A stretch of 36,022 nucleotides of DNA from Akkermansia sp. (GTDB taxonomy: Bacteria > Verrucomicrobiota > Verrucomicrobiia > Verrucomicrobiales > Akkermansiaceae), in the NCBI GenBank assembly GCA_024405415.1, contig JAKSOV010000009.1, positions 1 through 36,022 of the forward strand, written 5' to 3'. Below are positions 4,316-31,953 of the stretch, one piece after another (positions within the stretch are counted from its first letter, which is position 1; every line of letters begins with the position of its first letter). The position numbers and the translations under genes were made by a program. The notes under the pieces are model-generated. The model saw nothing but the letters and a program-made list of their open reading frames with translations. It was not told the origin of the DNA and did not search any database.

Positions 4316-4387
4316 TACAGGCTACAAGATTCGAACTTGTGACCCCATCCGTGTGAAGGATGTGCTCTACCACTGAGCTAAGCCTGC
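4316..4387 (-). tRNA. tRNA-Val (anticodon CAC)
   Basis: The 72-nt cloverleaf has D stem GCTC/GAGC, anticodon stem CATCC/GGATG with loop TTCACAC (anticodon CAC), variable loop GGGTC and T arm ACAAG-TTCGAAT-CTTGT. The acceptor stem GCAGGCT/AGCCTGT starts with a G-U wobble. The CCA end is not encoded, so it must be added by tRNA nucleotidyltransferase. It reads valine GTG codons, which are abundant in this GC-rich DNA. Confidence 0.93.
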
Positions 4388-24709: not shown

Positions 24710-25360
24710 TCAGCACGCGTGGGAAACCGCGGTGAAGGCGGCAAGCATGCGGTCGGGCATTTTAATGCCGGGGGCAATCTCAATACCGCTGTTAAAGTCC
24801 AACCCGTCGGGGCTGCATTGGGAGAGAGCCTCGGCCACGTTGTCGCCGCTCAGGCCGCCTGCAAGAATCCAGGGGTGGGGGAAGCGCAGCTTGCCGAACG
24901 CAGAAACATCGAGGCGACGGCCCAGACCGCCCGCCTGACCATAGCGGCCCGCATCCAGCAGGTAATAGGCGCAGTAGGGGGCCCAGTCGTCAATCTGCTG
25001 TTGCAGCTCGGCAAGGCTCTCGCAATGCTCGGGCCAGAGCACGCGAATGATGCGCTGAGGGCCGATGAGGGCGGCGTCCTCGCGCGTCTGTTTGCCGTGC
25101 AGCTGCACGAAGTCGAGCCTCGCCTGTTTCACGATGGACAGGATTTCATCCGCCCCTTGGCGCACGAACACACCCACACGCCCCACGTTGGCAGAGTTGA
25201 TGGAAGCGACCATCTCGGGCGAGACACTGCGCGGGCTGCCTTGGTGGAAGATGAAGCCCACGAAGCGCGCACCATAGGCGGCGGCACAATCCACCGTAGA
25301 GGGGTGTGTCTGGCCGCAGACTTTGATAAAGGGCGTCTTGTTCGTGGTGCTTGTCGTCAT
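24710..25360 (-). CDS. trpF: Phosphoribosylanthranilate isomerase
   Basis: TrpF isomerises phosphoribosylanthranilate to CdRP in tryptophan synthesis. The 216-residue TIM-barrel protein has IKVCGQT with the catalytic cysteine, FVGFIFHQGSPRSV, FVQLHGKQ, LLDAGRYGQAGGLGR with the catalytic aspartate, and ILAGGLSGDNVAEAL plus LDFNSGIE for phosphate binding. It is the last gene of trpEGDCF. trpB and trpA do not follow, so tryptophan synthase must lie elsewhere. The gap from trpC is only 11 nt and lacks a heptad element, unlike the three earlier junctions. Confidence 0.95.
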   Translation of the reverse strand: MTTSTTNKTPFIKVCGQTHPSTVDCAAAYGARFVGFIFHQGSPRSVSPEMVASINSANVGRVGVFVRQGADEILSIVKQARLDFVQLHGKQTREDAALIGPQRIIRVLWPEHCESLAELQQQIDDWAPYCAYYLLDAGRYGQAGGLGRRLDVSAFGKLRFPHPWILAGGLSGDNVAEALSQCSPDGLDFNSGIEIAPGIKMPDRMLAAFTAVSHAC

Positions 25361-25371
25361 GCTAGATAAGT

Positions 25372-26145
25372 TCAGCGTTCGGGATGAAGGATGCGCGTGA
25401 GGTTGGTGAGCGGGGAATCGCCCGTCATGAGGGCGGTGCCGATGAGAGCGGCATTATACCCCGCCGCGGCAGCATCGTCAAGGTGTGCACGTGTCTGCAT
25501 GGCGCTGGCGGCAATCCAGCACTCCTGCGGCAGACGGTGCGCGGCAAGCTTCAGCCCCTCCACGCGATCGGTCTTGAAGGTCTCGAGATTGCGGGCGTTG
25601 ACCTGAATGATGCGCGCGCCCGACTCGCGGGCCATCTCCAGCTCGCGCTCGGTAAAGACCTCGACCACGGCGTGGATGCCCTGCGTTTCTGCCAGCTCGC
25701 GGAGGGCGCGGAGACGGGCGACATCGGGCGTGAGCGCCACGATGAGCAGCATCGCGCTCGCGGGGGTGGCAAAGGTTTGGTGCACCTGCAGCTCGTCAAA
25801 GATAAAATCCTTGCGCAGCAGCGGGATGCCCGCGGGGGCTGCGGCATGGAGGTCGCGCACATGGCCCGTGAAGTATTGCTCTTCCGTCAGCACGCTCATG
25901 CAGGTCGCGCCGCCCGCAGCATACTGCCGCGCCACGTCCGCAGGGTCAAGGCGGTCATTGATAACACCTGCCGAGGGCGAGGAGCGCTTGAACTCCGCAA
26001 TCACGCGCAGCGGTTCGCCCGCGGGGGGCGGAGCCATGAGCGCCTTCAGAAAATCCGGGCGCACCCCTGCCCGCGGCGCGGGCATCTCGCGCCGCAGCGC
26101 CGCCAGCTCCGCCTGCTTGGCATCAATGAAACGCTGCAAGTTCAT
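25372..26145 (-). CDS. trpC: Indole-3-glycerol phosphate synthase
   Basis: TrpC closes the indole ring by converting CdRP to indole-3-glycerol phosphate. From ATG 26145 the protein has 257 residues, normal for a monofunctional TrpC. Motifs are VIAEFKRSSPSAGVI with catalytic Lys, LLRKDFIFDELQV, VVEVFTERELE and IIQVNARNLETFKTD. The open frame extends upstream to a GTG at 26238, but those 31 residues would be translated heptad repeat (ITNYKLKI...), so ATG 26145 is the real start. No Shine-Dalgarno sequence is present. Confidence 0.95.
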   Translation of the reverse strand: MNLQRFIDAKQAELAALRREMPAPRAGVRPDFLKALMAPPPAGEPLRVIAEFKRSSPSAGVINDRLDPADVARQYAAGGATCMSVLTEEQYFTGHVRDLHAAAPAGIPLLRKDFIFDELQVHQTFATPASAMLLIVALTPDVARLRALRELAETQGIHAVVEVFTERELEMARESGARIIQVNARNLETFKTDRVEGLKLAAHRLPQECWIAASAMQTRAHLDDAAAAGYNAALIGTALMTGDSPLTNLTRILHPER

Positions 26146-26222
26146 AGAATGTATGATTTGAAAGTCAGGCGCGGCGCAGCCGCGCGGAATTTTCAATTTG
26201 TAATTTGTAATTCCTGACAGGC
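26146..26222 (-). repeat. Heptad/GC-palindrome element between trpD and trpC (copy R3)
   Basis: In the operon sense the order is heptads AGGAATT, ACAAATT, ACAAATT, GAAAATT (26215-26188), the hairpin GCGCGGC-TGC-GCCGCGC (26185-26169), then CTGACTTTCAAATCATACATTCT up to the trpC ATG, given here as the joined pieces CTGACTTTC and AAATCATACATTCT. GAAAATTC before the palindrome and CAAATC after it are shared with copy R2. Confidence 0.85.
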
Positions 26223-26228
26223 CTCGGC

Positions 26229-27233
26229 TTAACTCCACGCAGCAATCACCTTCATGGCCACGCCTTGCGCCACGGCCATGCGGGCGCGGGAGACGCAGGA
26301 CTGCATATCCAGCTCGGGGGCCATGAGGCTGAGGGCGAGCGCCACGTTGATGGTCACCATGTCGTTCATGGCCTTGCTGCCCTGCCCCGAGAGCACGGAG
26401 CGCACGGCGGCCTCGGCCTCCTCGCGGGTTTCCACGCGCAGCTCGTCCTCCGAGGCGGGGGGCGAGAAGCCGTAGTCCGCGGGGTTGAAGGAGAAGGGCT
26501 TGACCTCGCCCTCCTCGATGAGGGCAGCCGTCACGGGGCCGAAGGCGGTCGCCTCATCATAGCCGCCCGCGCCGTGGATGACCAGCGCGCGGCGGTAGCC
26601 GCCCAGCGCAAGCACACTCGCAATCTTTTCAACCATCTCGGCCTTGGCCACACCCATCATCATGTGCGTGGGACGACTCGGGTTAATCATCGGCCCGAGC
26701 AGGTTGAAGAGCGTGCGCACGGCCAGCTCGCGGCGGATGGGGACGATATTCTTGAAGCCGGGGTGGTAGTGCGGCGCGAGGCAGAACGCAAAACCGCTCT
26801 TCTTCAGCGAGGCCTTGATGCCTTCGGGGGCGAGGTCCAGCGGGTAGCCCACGCTCTCCAGCGCATCCGCCGCGCCGGAGGAGGAGGAAACGGCACGGTT
26901 GCCGTGCTTGAGCACCTGATAACCCATGCCCGCAAGGATGAGCGCAGCGCAGGTGGAGCAGTTGAAGCTGTGCTTACCGTCACCGCCCGTACCCACGATG
27001 TCGATGTATTCGCCCTCAATGCCCGTCACGGCAACGGCGCGGGAAAGGCAGACCTCCACGGCAGCGGCCAGCTCCTCCGCCGTCTCGCCCTTGGCGCGCA
27101 GCGTGAGCAGCAGAGCACCCGCCTGCGCGGGGGACAGATGGCCGTCCATCAGTTCGGTCATGGCGTACTTGGCCTCGGACGGCTCCAGATTGATACCGTC
27201 AGCCAACTTATCAAGAATCGGTGCAATAGTCAT
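26229..27233 (-). CDS. trpD: Anthranilate phosphoribosyltransferase
   Basis: TrpD transfers phosphoribose from PRPP to anthranilate. The 334-residue length is typical. Motifs are VGTGGDGKHSFNCST (PRPP and Mg binding), KHGNRAVSSSSGAAD, the anthranilate-contacting HYHPGFKNIVPIRRELAVRTLFNLLGPMINP, and a C-terminal stretch of Ala and Leu. It is not fused to TrpG as in some enterobacteria. The ATG follows directly after the ATC-type heptads of copy R4, with no Shine-Dalgarno sequence. Confidence 0.96.
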   Translation of the reverse strand: MTIAPILDKLADGINLEPSEAKYAMTELMDGHLSPAQAGALLLTLRAKGETAEELAAAVEVCLSRAVAVTGIEGEYIDIVGTGGDGKHSFNCSTCAALILAGMGYQVLKHGNRAVSSSSGAADALESVGYPLDLAPEGIKASLKKSGFAFCLAPHYHPGFKNIVPIRRELAVRTLFNLLGPMINPSRPTHMMMGVAKAEMVEKIASVLALGGYRRALVIHGAGGYDEATAFGPVTAALIEEGEVKPFSFNPADYGFSPPASEDELRVETREEAEAAVRSVLSGQGSKAMNDMVTINVALALSLMAPELDMQSCVSRARMAVAQGVAMKVIAAWS

Positions 27234-27305
27234 AGGAATGTACGATTTACGATGTACGATGTACGATTTTTAAGAGAGGCGCACTTCGTGCGCGGGAGAA
27301 AGGAA
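27234..27305 (-). repeat. Heptad/GC-palindrome element between trpG and trpD (copy R4)
   Basis: In the operon sense the hairpin GCGCAC-GAA-GTGCGC (27293-27279) is followed by five heptads, AAAAATC, GTACATC, GTACATC, GTAAATC, GTACATT (27271-27237), then CCT and the trpD ATG. The 5' side has only a short AATTCC remnant after the trpG stop. The end AAATCGTACATTCCT-ATG closely matches copy R3 before trpC. Confidence 0.85.
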
Positions 27306-27875
27306 TTAAATATTGTCGGGGAAGTTTGCGATGAGTTTCAGACCATCGGTCGTCAAAATACTCTCGGGGTGATACTGCACGCCGACCCACGGGCGGTCCT
27401 TGTAGCGCATGCTCTGCACCTCGCCGTCCTCGTCGCGGGCGGTCACCTCCAGCAGGGGGTGGTTCTCGGGCACCTTCACCACGAGGGAGTGGTAGCGGCC
27501 GATGGTCATGGGGTTGCAAACGCCCGTATAGAGCCCCGTGCCGTCGTGCTCAATCACGCTGGTCTTGCCGTGCATCACGCGCGGCCCGCGCACCACCTCG
27601 CAGCCGGCGAAGTGGCCGAGGCACTGGTGGCCGAGACACACGCCCAACACAGGGATGTGGTGCGGCAGGCGAGCGAGGAACTCCAGGCAGTAGCCTGCAT
27701 GCTCGGGGTTACTCGGCCCGGGCGAAAGCACAACATACTCCAACTCGGGAGAAGTTGCCAGCTCCAAAAGCCGCGGGTTGTCATTCGTCAACACCGTGGG
27801 CGTGCGCCCCGTCTGCATGAAATACTGGACGATGTTGTAGGAAAACGAGTCGTAGTTATCGATAAACAGGAACAT
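27306..27875 (-). CDS. trpG: Anthranilate synthase glutamine amidotransferase subunit
   Basis: TrpG hydrolyses glutamine and passes ammonia to TrpE. The 189-residue class I amidotransferase starts MFLFIDNYDSFSYNIVQYF. The nucleophile is in PVLGVCLGHQCLG and the His-Glu pair is in VQYHPES. No pabA-specific trait can be asserted, so a shared role in folate synthesis is possible. It is the only trp gene with an obvious purine-rich ribosome-binding stretch (AGGAAAGGAAGAAG just before the ATG). Confidence 0.95.
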   Translation of the reverse strand: MFLFIDNYDSFSYNIVQYFMQTGRTPTVLTNDNPRLLELATSPELEYVVLSPGPSNPEHAGYCLEFLARLPHHIPVLGVCLGHQCLGHFAGCEVVRGPRVMHGKTSVIEHDGTGLYTGVCNPMTIGRYHSLVVKVPENHPLLEVTARDEDGEVQSMRYKDRPWVGVQYHPESILTTDGLKLIANFPDNI

Positions 27876-27947: not shown

Positions 27948-29339
27948 TCAATCTTCAGCGAGGATAGTATCAATAATCCTTCCCTTATTGCGGCATTCCA
28001 TCCATTCGTACTTGGGCTCGGAGTCGTACACAAGGCCTGCGCCCATCTGCCAGTAGACGCGGCCGTTGCGGTGCCACATGGAGCGGATGGTGATGCCCGT
28101 GTCGAGGTGCACGGCATCCTTGTCGAGGCCGAGCCAGCCGATGCAGCCCGCGTACGGCCCGCGCGGCACCTCCTCAATCTCGTGGATAATCTCCATGGCG
28201 CGCACCTTGGGCGCACCGCTCACCGTGCCCGCAGGGAAAGCACTGGCCAGCAGGTCGAGGCCGTCCATACCGGGGGCGAGGTCCGCCGTCACACGGCTGG
28301 TCATGTGCATCACATGAGAAAAGCGCTCCACATCCATCAGGCGCTCTACCTTCACGCTGCCGCCCACCGCCACGCGGCCGAGATCGTTGCGACCGAGGTC
28401 CACGAGCATCACGTGCTCCGCGCGCTCCTTGGGGCTGGCGGTCATCTCGCGGGCAAAAGCCTCGTCCTCCTCCTCCGTGCGGCCGCGGCGGCGCGTGCCC
28501 GCAATCGGGGAAAGCAGCAGATGATTCTCCGTGCAGCGCACCATCACCTCGGGGGAAGCGCCGAAAAGCTCCATGTCCGAGAAGTGCATGTAGAACATGT
28601 AGGGAGAGGGGTTAACGGAGCGCATGCGGCGATAGAGCGTGAAGGTATCGCCCTCAAACGCCGCGCTGCATTGCGTGGAGCCCACCACCTGAATCGCCTC
28701 GCCGTCGTGCAGCATTTGGCGCACCTTCTCCACACCCGCCTTGAAGTTCTCCTCCGAGGGGCAGCGCAGCGTCTCGCCCGCCTTGCAGGGCTTGCGGCGG
28801 CTGTCGCGCAGCTGCGGCATGTTCTCGATGTCGCGGGGCTCGCCGATGCTCAGCTGGTAGAGGCGGTTGTACACGTGGTCAAACACCAGCACCGTGGCCG
28901 CAATGACAAGGCGGCTCTCCGCATCGGACACCTTCAGCGTCTGTGCCAGCTTGGGCTGGAAGATGGCGGCCATCTCATAGCCCCAGTAGCCATAGAGCGC
29001 GCGGGTGATGGGCGCCATGTCAGGATTGTCGGGCACGATGTCCACCGCCTTCATCACAGCGCGCATGCCCTCCATGTAGGGCAGCCCGTCCAGCTCCGCG
29101 AGGGGGGCGAGGGCGGCATCGTGCGTCTCCACCTTCAGCTTGCCGTCCGCCACGGAGAACTCCGCGAGGAAATCCGTCGCAATCACGCTGTAGCGGCCCC
29201 ATCGGCCGTCCACCTCCGTACTTTCAAGCAGGATACCGTTGGGGTTCTGCTCGGAAATCTGCATGAAGAGGCGAATGGGCGTCTGGGTGTCGCCCTCCGT
29301 CAATCGTCGGCATTGCTGTCGGAGCTGAATCTGTTGCAT
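27948..29339 (-). CDS. trpE: Anthranilate synthase component I
   Basis: TrpE converts chorismate and ammonia to anthranilate, the first step of the pathway. From ATG 29339 the protein has 463 residues. The N-terminal LLES motif contributes to the tryptophan feedback site. The chorismate-binding region has PSPYMFYMHF, ELFGASPEVMVR, SPIAGTRRRGRTEEED, LVDLGRNDLGRV, FPAGTVSGAPKVRAMEII and YAGCIGWLG. An upstream in-frame start at 29453 would translate through the attenuator terminator and is rejected. No Shine-Dalgarno sequence is seen. Transcription entering this gene must pass the leader terminator 28 nt upstream. Confidence 0.95.
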   Translation of the reverse strand: MQQIQLRQQCRRLTEGDTQTPIRLFMQISEQNPNGILLESTEVDGRWGRYSVIATDFLAEFSVADGKLKVETHDAALAPLAELDGLPYMEGMRAVMKAVDIVPDNPDMAPITRALYGYWGYEMAAIFQPKLAQTLKVSDAESRLVIAATVLVFDHVYNRLYQLSIGEPRDIENMPQLRDSRRKPCKAGETLRCPSEENFKAGVEKVRQMLHDGEAIQVVGSTQCSAAFEGDTFTLYRRMRSVNPSPYMFYMHFSDMELFGASPEVMVRCTENHLLLSPIAGTRRRGRTEEEDEAFAREMTASPKERAEHVMLVDLGRNDLGRVAVGGSVKVERLMDVERFSHVMHMTSRVTADLAPGMDGLDLLASAFPAGTVSGAPKVRAMEIIHEIEEVPRGPYAGCIGWLGLDKDAVHLDTGITIRSMWHRNGRVYWQMGAGLVYDSEPKYEWMECRNKGRIIDTILAED

Positions 29340-29367
29340 AGTGTATATTGTGTTTGAAAATTGTCCG

Positions 29368-29409
29368 AAAAATAAAAAACCGCCGCGGCCCATCGGGAAG
29401 CCGTAGCGG
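29368..29409 (-). terminator. trp attenuator terminator
   Basis: On the minus strand CCGCTACGG-CTT-CCC pairs with GGG-CCG-CGGCGG around a GAT loop (29409-29380), with one internal mismatch and one wobble. TTTTTTATTTTT follows (29379-29368). It stands between the leader peptide and trpE with no other gene in between, so it can only control trp operon entry. Confidence 0.8.
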
Positions 29410-29467
29410 TATCGTGTTATCTTCTTTTTGATGATACGTCCCGTGCGCCGCACGGGGGATGCTTCCC
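29395..29467 (-). promoter_or_regulatory. trp antiterminator pairing
   Basis: GGGAAGC (29467-29461), starting 7 nt after the leader stop codon, is exactly complementary to GCTTCCC (29401-29395) within the 5' arm of the terminator. Between them lies a perfect 7-bp hairpin, CCCGTGC-CGGC... form at 29456-29440 with a 3-nt loop. A ribosome at the stop codon would cover GGGAAGC and let the terminator form; a ribosome stalled at the Trp codons would leave it free to pair. Confidence 0.65.
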
Positions 29468-29473
29468 TGTGTG

Positions 29474-29548
29474 TTAACCCATATAGCCACGCCAGCTCCA
29501 GGCCTCCGCCCGGAACACGCAGTTATGAATGTACACGCAAGAAATCAT
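29474..29548 (-). CDS. trpL: trp operon leader peptide
   Basis: This 24-codon ORF begins ATG ATT TCT and ends A-W-S-W-R-G-Y-M-G then TAA. Codons 17 and 19 are both TGG in a peptide where chance would rarely place two. Attenuation by ribosome stalling at Trp codons is established in enterobacteria and predicted in other groups; here the leader, antiterminator segment and terminator all lie in the right order and spacing before trpE. A -10 box ends 8 nt before the ATG, so the leader peptide itself seems to be read from a nearly leaderless mRNA. GAGGG lies 3 nt before the ATG, too close for a good ribosome-binding site. Confidence 0.75.
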   Translation of the reverse strand: MISCVYIHNCVFRAEAWSWRGYMG

Positions 29549-29556
29549 CTGCCCTC

Positions 29557-29584
29557 ATTCTACTCCCCCTCCCGCGCGCGACAA
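29557..29584 (-). promoter_or_regulatory. trp operon promoter
   Basis: On the minus strand TTGTCG (29584-29579), a 16-nt spacer and TAGAAT (29562-29557) end 8 nt before the leader ATG at 29548. The spacing matches that of the other short-leader promoters in this window. No TrpR-like operator palindrome was recognised. Confidence 0.6.
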
Positions 29585-29617
29585 GAGAGAGTTTTGTCAT
29601 ACAACATTTTTTATCGG

Positions 29618-30004
29618 TCACCCCTCAATTTCCTCCAAAATGCGGCTGATACCGAAAAGCGGGATATCCACCAGCGGACACGCGCAGGGGATGTTGTCGC
29701 GGTCGATGTAGGAATAGGTATGTCGAGCATATTCGCCCATGGAGCTACGCACGAGTATAGACGGCTTGAAGCGCCGGCAGTAGCTGAGCAGGCTCTTGGC
29801 TCGTCGGTTCAGCTCGCCTTTGGCTTCCAGCGGCACTACGCCATGCTTGGTTTCCAACAGGAAATCCATCTCAGCCTGTGATTTATCCGCCAGCCGGAAG
29901 AACGGTTCACGCCCGTACTCGGCAAGGAGCTGCTGATGCACATATTGCTCGGTCAACGCGCCTTTGAACTGCCCGAAGATGGCATTTTCCTCCGCGCTGG
30001 TGCC
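29618..30004 (-). pseudogene. C-terminal remnant of a DUF4143-family ATP-binding protein
   Basis: The frame reads ENAIFGQFKGALTEQYVHQQL, then REPFFRLADKSQAEMDFLLE, PLEAKGELNRRAKSL and a C-terminal IPLFGISRILEEIE. These are features of the nuclease-like C-terminal domain of AAA/DUF4143 proteins, which are normally about 400 residues. Only about 129 codons remain. The frame is cut at TAA 30005-30007, and just upstream an AGL-type motif appears in a different frame, so the loss involved at least a frameshift. No ATPase part remains between this fragment and murJ. An ATG at 29956 would give 112 residues, but a functional product is unlikely. Confidence 0.75.
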
Positions 30005-30081
30005 TTAATCCGGCCCGTTCCCGTCAAGCTACTTTCCCAAAATCGAAGGAAACGTCCTTTTTTTAATCCTCCTTTTCCGTC

Positions 30082-31953
30082 TCATGCGCGCTTGCCGCGG
30101 CGGAGGAAGCGGGCGGCGAGCTGTTGCAGCTCGGGCACGCGGAAGAGGAGGCACGCAGCAGCGTAGAGTGCGCCGCCGAGGATACCGCCGAGGGCCAGCT
30201 CACCGAAGCGCAGGAAGAAGCTGTTGCCGAGCCATGCCGTCGGCTCCGCGCCGCAGAGCGCGTAGGCGCTGCCGCCGCAGAAAAGGGCCAGCACGGCGCC
30301 CGCCGCGAGGATGCGGAGCAGCCCGGGGATGAGCACACGGCCCGCCATGCCGCCCAGCAGGTGACGCAGGTAGAAGAAGTAGAAGAGGAAGTTCAGCGTG
30401 GTCACCACGGAGGTAGTGAGCGCCAGATAGGGCGCGGGCATGCCGAGCACCATCACGAACACATAGTTCAGCCCGATGGATGTGGCACAGGCCAGCAACG
30501 CGAGGAAGGCGGGAGCCCATGGCTTCTCCAGCGCAAGGAACACGGGTTGCAGCACCTTCATGCCCGCGTAGCCCAGCAGACCGAGCGAGTAGGCCGAGAG
30601 CACCGTGCCTGTGAGAATAGAGGCGCTTTCATCGAAGCGCCCGCGCTGGAAGAAGATGCTGACGATGGGGATACTCCAGCAGCAGAGGAACACGGCCGAG
30701 GGCACGGCGAAGAGCGCCACGAAGCGCAGGGCGCGCGCGAGGTGCTCGGAAATCTCGCTGTTGCCGCGCGTGAGCGTCATGCGAGAGACGGAGGGCAGGA
30801 CCACCATACCCACCGCCACACCGAAGAGCGCCACGGGCAGCTGCCAGAGGTGGAAGGCGCTCGAGAGCGCTGTCACGGAGCCCGGCTGCAGGTAGAGCGC
30901 AAAGGAGGTGTTGATAAAAATGTTCGTCTGCGTGATGCCGCTGGCTATGACGCCCGGCAGCATGAGATACCACACCTTGCGGGCCAAGGGGTCTGTGAAG
31001 CGGAACCAACCGCGCTCCCAATGCAGGCCGATGTCCCAATGCGGGCGATAGCCCTCCTTGCGGAGCTTGGGCACCTGCACGGCAATCTGCGCCGCGCCGC
31101 CGAAGACCACGGCCACGGCAAAGCCGTAGAGCGCATTCGGCCCGTAGTGCGGGTCGATGAACCAGCCGATGAGCAGACCGAGGGCGATGGTCGTCAGGTT
31201 GAAGGCCGCGCTGGCGAGGTTCGGCAGCCCGAAGATGCCGAACACATTGAGCGCGCCCATGCAGAGTGCGGAGACGGAGGCCAGCAGGATGAAGGGCCAG
31301 ATGATGCGGCAGAGGTCGGTGGCCAGCCCCATGTAGCTGCGGGCTTCGAGTTTCAGCGCGGGCAGCGAGTCCTCCGCAGGGGTGTCACCAAGGCGCACGC
31401 GGCTCCCCTGCTCCAGCTTCTCCAACGCGGAAACGCGCACGCAGGTAGTCTCCGACAGGGATTCAAGCGCGGCATCGGCGGTAAAGACGGCTTCTTTCAG
31501 CCCGTCGGCGTTCTCGCGCAAGCCTACGTAGGTGGCCGTCTCCGTCATGACGACGGGGGCATCGGCCGGATGTTGCAGCACCACGGCGGCGCGCTCGGGG
31601 TAAAGAGCCTGCATGAACACCCCCGCCGAGAGCACGCCGAGCGCCACGATGCAGAGCATGAGGGAGACGAGCTGCGAGAAGATGCGGTGAGCCAGCGCCC
31701 ACGCGGCCTCACGCCCCGCCTGCTCCTCCTGCTTGCTCATCACGCTGGTGAAGCTCTGGGAGAGAGCGCCCTCCGCGAACATATCGCGCAGCATGTTCGG
31801 CACGCGGAAGGCCGTCAAAAAGGCATCCAGCGCGCCCGTGGCACCGAAGAGAGAGGTGTAGACGATTTCACGCAGCAGCCCCGTAAAACGGCAGCAGAAG
31901 ATGGCCGCCGTCGCGATGAGGCTCTTCTTGTGCAGATTATTGTCGGCAGCCAT
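30082..31953 (-). CDS. murJ: Lipid II flippase MurJ with enlarged periplasmic loop
   Basis: MurJ flips the peptidoglycan precursor lipid II across the inner membrane. The 623-residue protein has the family N terminus CCRFTGLLREIVYTSLFGATGALDAFLTAFRVPNMLRDMFAEGALSQSF, given in pieces: CRFTGLLRE, ALDAFLTAFRVPN and FAEGALSQSF. Helices such as LCIVALGVLSAGVFMQAL and IIWPFILLASVSALCMG follow, with many others to the C terminus. It is about 100 residues longer than usual because an acidic, soluble segment (about residues 120-205) lies between the third and fourth helices. The gene starts 20 nt after the TPR gene at 31974 and is last in its series. Confidence 0.93.
   Translation of the reverse strand: MAADNNLHKKSLIATAAIFCCRFTGLLREIVYTSLFGATGALDAFLTAFRVPNMLRDMFAEGALSQSFTSVMSKQEEQAGREAAWALAHRIFSQLVSLMLCIVALGVLSAGVFMQALYPERAAVVLQHPADAPVVMTETATYVGLRENADGLKEAVFTADAALESLSETTCVRVSALEKLEQGSRVRLGDTPAEDSLPALKLEARSYMGLATDLCRIIWPFILLASVSALCMGALNVFGIFGLPNLASAAFNLTTIALGLLIGWFIDPHYGPNALYGFAVAVVFGGAAQIAVQVPKLRKEGYRPHWDIGLHWERGWFRFTDPLARKVWYLMLPGVIASGITQTNIFINTSFALYLQPGSVTALSSAFHLWQLPVALFGVAVGMVVLPSVSRMTLTRGNSEISEHLARALRFVALFAVPSAVFLCCWSIPIVSIFFQRGRFDESASILTGTVLSAYSLGLLGYAGMKVLQPVFLALEKPWAPAFLALLACATSIGLNYVFVMVLGMPAPYLALTTSVVTTLNFLFYFFYLRHLLGGMAGRVLIPGLLRILAAGAVLALFCGGSAYALCGAEPTAWLGNSFFLRFGELALGGILGGALYAAACLLFRVPELQQLAARFLRRGKRA

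Follow-up and report, generated by a model that had tools for sequence, protein, structure and literature searches.

The window, a 36,022-nucleotide stretch of a MAG of the Akkermansia clade that a genus search assigns to one genus with about 75 other genomes, carries a tryptophan biosynthesis operon on its minus strand. The first gene, trpE (27948..29339, ATG at 29339; Pfam PF04715/PF00425), encodes anthranilate synthase component I of a type that a phylogenetic tree assigns to Desulfovibrionaceae, and is followed in the same operon by trpG, trpD, trpC and trpF (24710..27875, identified by Pfam); trpA is located on another contig. The region 5′ of trpE contains a compact leader, also on the minus strand. 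A −35 element TTGTCG (29579..29584), of which the TTG occupies the same place in nearly all relatives, is separated by 16 nt from a −10 element TAGAAT (29557..29562) that ends 8 nt 5′ of a leader ATG. Spacing from the −10 element predicts transcription start at a C/A step at 29550, leaving a 5′ UTR of 2 nt, AG. The leader ORF (29474..29548) comprises 24 codons, MISCVYIHNCVFRAEAWSWRGYMG*, with a Trp-Ser-Trp motif in which Trp codons 17 and 19 (29500-29498 and 29494-29492) are the putative regulatory codons. Segment 2, GGGAAGC (29461..29467), begins at the seventh nucleotide past the leader stop and is the exact complement of GCTTCCC (29395-29401), the core of segment 3, which runs from the 5′ arm into the loop of a strong intrinsic terminator formed by segments 3 and 4, ACCGCTACGGCTTCCCGATGGGCCGCGGCGGT (29379..29410), with a T-run from 29378. 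The whole leader RNA folds more stably than shuffled sequences (z = −4.8).

An initial annotation had listed the promoter, the 24-codon W-S-W ORF, GGGAAGC, a spacer hairpin, GCTTCCC within the terminator and the T-run, and every coordinate was verified. The list missed two further elements: a 9-bp hairpin with a GGAG loop that ends on and just after the first Trp codon (29495..29516), and a 5′-terminal segment 1 consisting of the start codon and codons 2-4 (29538..29549), which folding and co-variation identify as complementary to segment 2 in a pairing that extends over 29469-29458. The 7-bp spacer hairpin CCCGTGC-GGC-GCACGGG (29440..29456) is present in the window but limited to some close relatives; many relatives have none, and it is not a core part of the leader. 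Upstream of the trp promoter, a 112-amino-acid ORF (29618-29956) matches the end of DUF4143 (PF13635) below threshold and is perhaps the remnant of a larger ATPase gene.

Conservation and translation start of the leader

Comparison of 29 distinct attenuator-bearing Akkermansia trpE upstream regions revealed one shared plan despite wide divergence. In every relative with the attenuator the leader ORF encodes WW, WxW or WWW while the rest of the peptide is little shared, and segment 2 is followed by a terminator and T-run; these parts are kept across sequences at about 60-92% TrpE identity. The nearest named relatives are Akkermansia MAGs with 92% TrpE identity, and the closest of them (L003) retains both the TGG codons and the pairing, the pattern that the initial annotation had proposed looking for in close relatives. 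A short ORF with neighbouring Trp codons thus stands before a trp biosynthesis gene, with an intrinsic terminator between the two, and the comparative sequence evidence makes a strong case that the leader is an attenuator. The ribosome-mediated logic that had been read from the window is in this way strongly supported by the genus-wide comparison. One Akkermansia species (L006/L034) is the sole exception among the analysed trpE upstream regions and has lost the attenuator; its trpE is preceded by an apparent tRNA gene and a hairpin with a short T-run. Segment 2 is internal to the leader ORF both in the A. muciniphila group (L020-L029 and L054) and in Desulfovibrionaceae, whereas in the window's group the ORF stops 5′ of segment 2.

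Two accessory elements recur. Many leaders have a hairpin whose end falls on or directly before the first Trp codon, with a combined shuffle P value of 7e-6 over 21 leaders, many of which do not beat shuffles as single sequences; it is a possible RNA polymerase pause hairpin. In the window TATGACA (29595..29601) starts 17 nt upstream of the start of the −35 element, and in nearly all leaders where TATGAC[AC] was found the distance is exactly 17 nt, the one spacing scored as 18 (L028) belonging to a leader whose −35 is doubtful. Across 576 kb of two genomes, this promoter is the only place with the complete TATGACA-TTG-TAnnnT arrangement, which rules out TATGACA as a general promoter element, and TATGAC is not in frame across relatives, ruling it out as a conserved upstream start codon. 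It is possibly a protein-binding site.

The leader peptide is likely to be translated from a leaderless start throughout the genus. A search of the 100 nt upstream of each leader ATG, with the promoter's distance left free, placed the end of the best promoter 7-10 nt from the ATG in all 29 distinct sequences, corresponding to a predicted 5′ UTR of about 1-3 nt. The window's own promoter is the only promoter-like hit in 29000-30100 and is by itself at chance level (1 found versus 0.6 expected), and the case for the promoter and for leaderless initiation therefore rests on the comparison. The initial annotation correctly saw no room for a ribosome-binding site but considered this unusual, which in Akkermansia it is not. 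Shine-Dalgarno (SD) motifs precede 9 of 123 genes in the window's own genome and 40 of 279 in A. muciniphila, no higher than in control bins, whereas they are enriched in Desulfovibrionaceae loci (28 of 51 versus 8-10); and about 10% of A. muciniphila transcription start sites (TSSs) are leaderless by Cappable-seq (PMC4782308). Given both observations, a missing ribosome-binding site is expected. TAnnnT is also roughly doubled 6-10 nt before ATG (24 versus 11 per bin in A. muciniphila; 8 versus 2.9 in the window's own genome), but start-codon errors make this genus-wide signature weak and we rely on the published TSS data instead.

If the promoter at 29584-29557 were not the main one, ribosome-mediated attenuation could act on a longer RNA with a conventional 5′ UTR; this would fit the chance-level score of the window promoter and the in-frame ATG found further upstream in five relatives (L003, L009, L010, L018 and L054). 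That upstream ATG, however, sits in the conserved TATGACA and is out of frame or followed by a stop in five others (L002, L004, L005, L019 and L028), and the constant promoter position in all 29 sequences and the lack of SD enrichment in Akkermansia also argue against a longer transcript, which we regard as improbable.

Pairing states and the proposed switch

The antiterminator formed by segments 2 and 3 is the best-supported pairing of the leader. Its duplex beats shuffled sequences in the window alone (P = 0.023) and in most of 21 related leaders, with a combined P value of about 1e-19 that overstates independence, since the 21 leaders share ancestry and are not 21 independent tests. In an alignment of 15 distinct rows, 95.8% of cells pair, double changes exchange GC with UA and GC with CG, and the covariation score is 0.315, compared with 0.138 after shuffling and no more than 0.071 in slid controls. 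Compensatory changes of the kind that the initial annotation had named as a check on the 29461-29467/29395-29401 pairing are thus found among relatives, and they maintain an antiterminator that excludes the terminator. Folding by state gives the corresponding outcomes: with a ribosome at W17 or W19 and segment 4 absent the 2:3 pairing forms, and with a ribosome at the leader stop the terminator forms. Once segment 4 is present the terminator is more stable than 2:3, and the switch must therefore be kinetic, like other attenuators.

Alternative hairpins are also a feature of systems in which uncharged tRNA (a T-box), a riboswitch ligand or an RNA-binding protein, not a translating ribosome, acts on the RNA. 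A search of the window with Rfam 15 (4227 models) at gathering score returned only a tRNA at 4316-4387 and no match to the leader, permissive E-values yielded nothing meaningful in 29300-29700, and the paired Trp codons are kept while the remaining peptide changes; control of this kind is very unlikely. The least probable reading, a constitutive terminator or promoter spacer with a coincidental ORF and complementarity, can appeal to the random origin of short ORFs with two Trp codons plus a terminator and to the modest single-sequence P value, but hardly survives the retention of all parts, with compensatory changes, over the observed range of TrpE divergence.

We conclude that the leader very probably controls trpEGDCF by ribosome-mediated transcription attenuation with leaderless initiation on the leader peptide, and that its SD-led precursor was probably acquired with the trp genes from a relative of Desulfovibrionaceae. 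The RNA would begin 1-3 nt before the leader AUG, a position that obliges a 70S ribosome to load at the free 5′ end. When Trp-tRNA is scarce, the ribosome would stall at codons 17/19 and leave segment 2 (29467-29461) free to pair with segment 3 (29401-29395) while segment 4 has yet to be transcribed, preventing terminator formation and allowing transcription of trpE; here co-variation demonstrates the 2:3 pairing. When tryptophan is plentiful, the ribosome is expected to reach the stop codon, 6 nt before segment 2, and to cover segment 2, such that segments 3 and 4 pair and transcription ends.

A third state is suggested by the 5′ end of the RNA. In the fold of the untranslated window leader, 29549-29546 (GAUG, including the start codon) pairs with 29461-29458 and 29544-29538 pairs with 29469-29463, hiding segment 2 and leaving the terminator free; in all, segment 2 is paired with roughly the first 16 nt of the RNA, including the start codon. 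Across leaders, the initial 20 nt pair more stably with their own segment 2 (−11.8 kcal/mol) than with those of other lineages (−8.2 kcal/mol), and none of 20,000 partner permutations was as good. The idea of a segment 1 came from L002 and was then tested on relatives; without L002 and L003, the sequences that suggested the pairing, 1 of 20,000 permutations was as good, and with eight distinct lineages excluding L002 the count was 10 of 20,000. The same permutation test found no co-variation with segment 2 for nt 21-40 or nt 31-50 of the leaders. Single sequences are often not significant alone for the 1:2 pairing, and on the A. muciniphila side (L020, L021 and L027) it is weak or absent, so that a segment 1:2 pairing in A. 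muciniphila was not supported by the pairing test. In the window's part of the genus the alternative 1:2 pairing is present and co-varies, and would favour termination without translation.

If a ribosome fails to load in time, the 5′ end and AUG would pair with segment 2, the start would be buried and the terminator would form. Untranslated leaders may accordingly bury their own start codon and terminate as a default, an outcome suggested by the co-varying pairing in the window's part of the genus. Tentatively, and with somewhat less confidence than doubt, we suggest that the 5′ end acts as both ribosome landing site and segment 1 in a one-time gate: a 70S ribosome arriving late would find the AUG buried, later loading would be barred and the operon would terminate. 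The literature searched contained no description of such a start-burying loading gate in a leaderless attenuator. Segment 1 would lie exposed behind a ribosome that has stalled at codon 17, and a queued second ribosome or steric hindrance would be needed to prevent 1:2 pairing.

Origin of the operon and its switch

Beyond the genus, the nearest TrpE proteins are those of the sulfate-reducing Desulfovibrionaceae, at about 55-59% identity, and the TrpE proteins of other Verrucomicrobiales are different (at most 41% identity over full-length alignments). In a maximum-likelihood tree every Akkermansia TrpE clusters with those of gut Desulfovibrionaceae (support 100/100), nested in a Desulfovibrionales group and separate from Verrucomicrobiales; some long branches in the tree fall outside the Akkermansia-Desulfovibrionaceae group. 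Gene order trpE-G-D-C-F is common to Akkermansia and Desulfovibrionaceae. These sequence comparisons are most simply explained by horizontal transfer of the operon from a Desulfovibrionaceae relative.

Desulfovibrionaceae trp leaders have 31-67 nt between the −10 element and the ATG, with SD-like sequences before most leader ATGs. Together with the Desulfovibrionaceae-type TrpE, these distances suggest that the switch probably came along with the genes and became leaderless only afterwards: an Akkermansia ancestor would have acquired trp genes with an SD-led attenuator, and the leader would then have lost its 5′ UTR. Literature searches returned nothing direct on trp attenuation in Desulfovibrio. 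The trp attenuators of this family (L055-L062 and L077), which accompany the nearest TrpE outside Akkermansia, are the probable source of the Akkermansia switch.

In nine Desulfovibrionales loci (L066, L068, L069, L071, L073, L074, L075, L101 and L105), WWW forms the C-terminal tail of a full-length upstream gene, prephenate dehydrogenase TyrA (Pfam PF02153 in L073), about 100-200 nt before trpE, and in most of these loci a matching antiterminator and terminator follow the tail. The TyrA tail may serve as the trp leader peptide in several Desulfovibrionales, and the free-standing leaders seen in Akkermansia and in gut Desulfovibrionaceae may be what remains of such a tail. Separately, in 41 of 76 Akkermansia genomes no TrpE match reaches an E-value of 1e-60, suggesting that tryptophan synthesis has been widely lost, or is missing, in part of the genus.

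Comparison with known attenuators

The Escherichia coli trp attenuator, the Yanofsky type, has a trpL preceded by a 5′ UTR and Shine-Dalgarno sequence and a segment 1 that overlaps the Trp codons. The Akkermansia leader resembles it in having adjacent or nearly adjacent Trp codons, 2:3 and 3:4 hairpins that exclude each other, a U-run, trpE downstream and a segment 1 that can sequester segment 2, and differs in its predicted leaderless start and in a segment 1 that is the 5′ end of the RNA with the start codon. Desulfovibrionaceae trp attenuators share the order of elements, with a GYWWWR-type core, segment 2 just downstream and a terminator before trpE, but have the longer SD-led 5′ region described above, three Trp codons and segment 2 inside the ORF. 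Mycobacterial leaderless polycysteine ORFs are reportedly amino-acid-responsive attenuators (Canestrari, 2020, as cited in PMC13236596), responding to cysteine and acting on other operons.

As of 2010, leader-peptide attenuation was known only from Proteobacteria and Actinobacteria, according to a report that itself presented a case from Firmicutes (PMC2965389). The leader described here would add Verrucomicrobiota, in a widely studied human gut genus, and would let an Akkermansia gut bacterium sense its own tryptophan supply through a tiny peptide begun at the first bases of the RNA. It also suggests a likely route, in which a regulatory RNA travelled with its operon and then adapted to a recipient making little use of Shine-Dalgarno sites, and provides a natural setting in which to test whether leaderless initiation has the speed and exclusivity that an attenuator requires, and how a switch survives a changed mode of translation initiation.

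The initial annotation knew of no described case of a leaderless design, but two have been reported. In Sinorhizobium meliloti trpLE(G), the RNA rnTrpL starts with the trpL ATG and is leaderless, encoding a 14-codon peptide (PMC7298713); it is an attenuator with a leaderless leader peptide, as predicted for Akkermansia, in an alphaproteobacterium, whereas the present case is from Verrucomicrobiota, has an operon of probable Desulfovibrionaceae origin and a start predicted 1-3 nt before the AUG. Streptomyces lividans TrpL1, located before trpE, is reportedly leaderless and Trp-rich (WWW), with hairpins and a U-rich stretch (PMC8079986); it resembles the predicted leaderless Trp leader peptide of Akkermansia but belongs to a different phylum and precedes a monocistronic trpE. 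Relative to these systems, what appears new in Akkermansia is the probable transfer of a Desulfovibrionaceae-type TrpE and switch that then became leaderless, and a candidate segment 1 at the very 5′ end that co-varies with segment 2.
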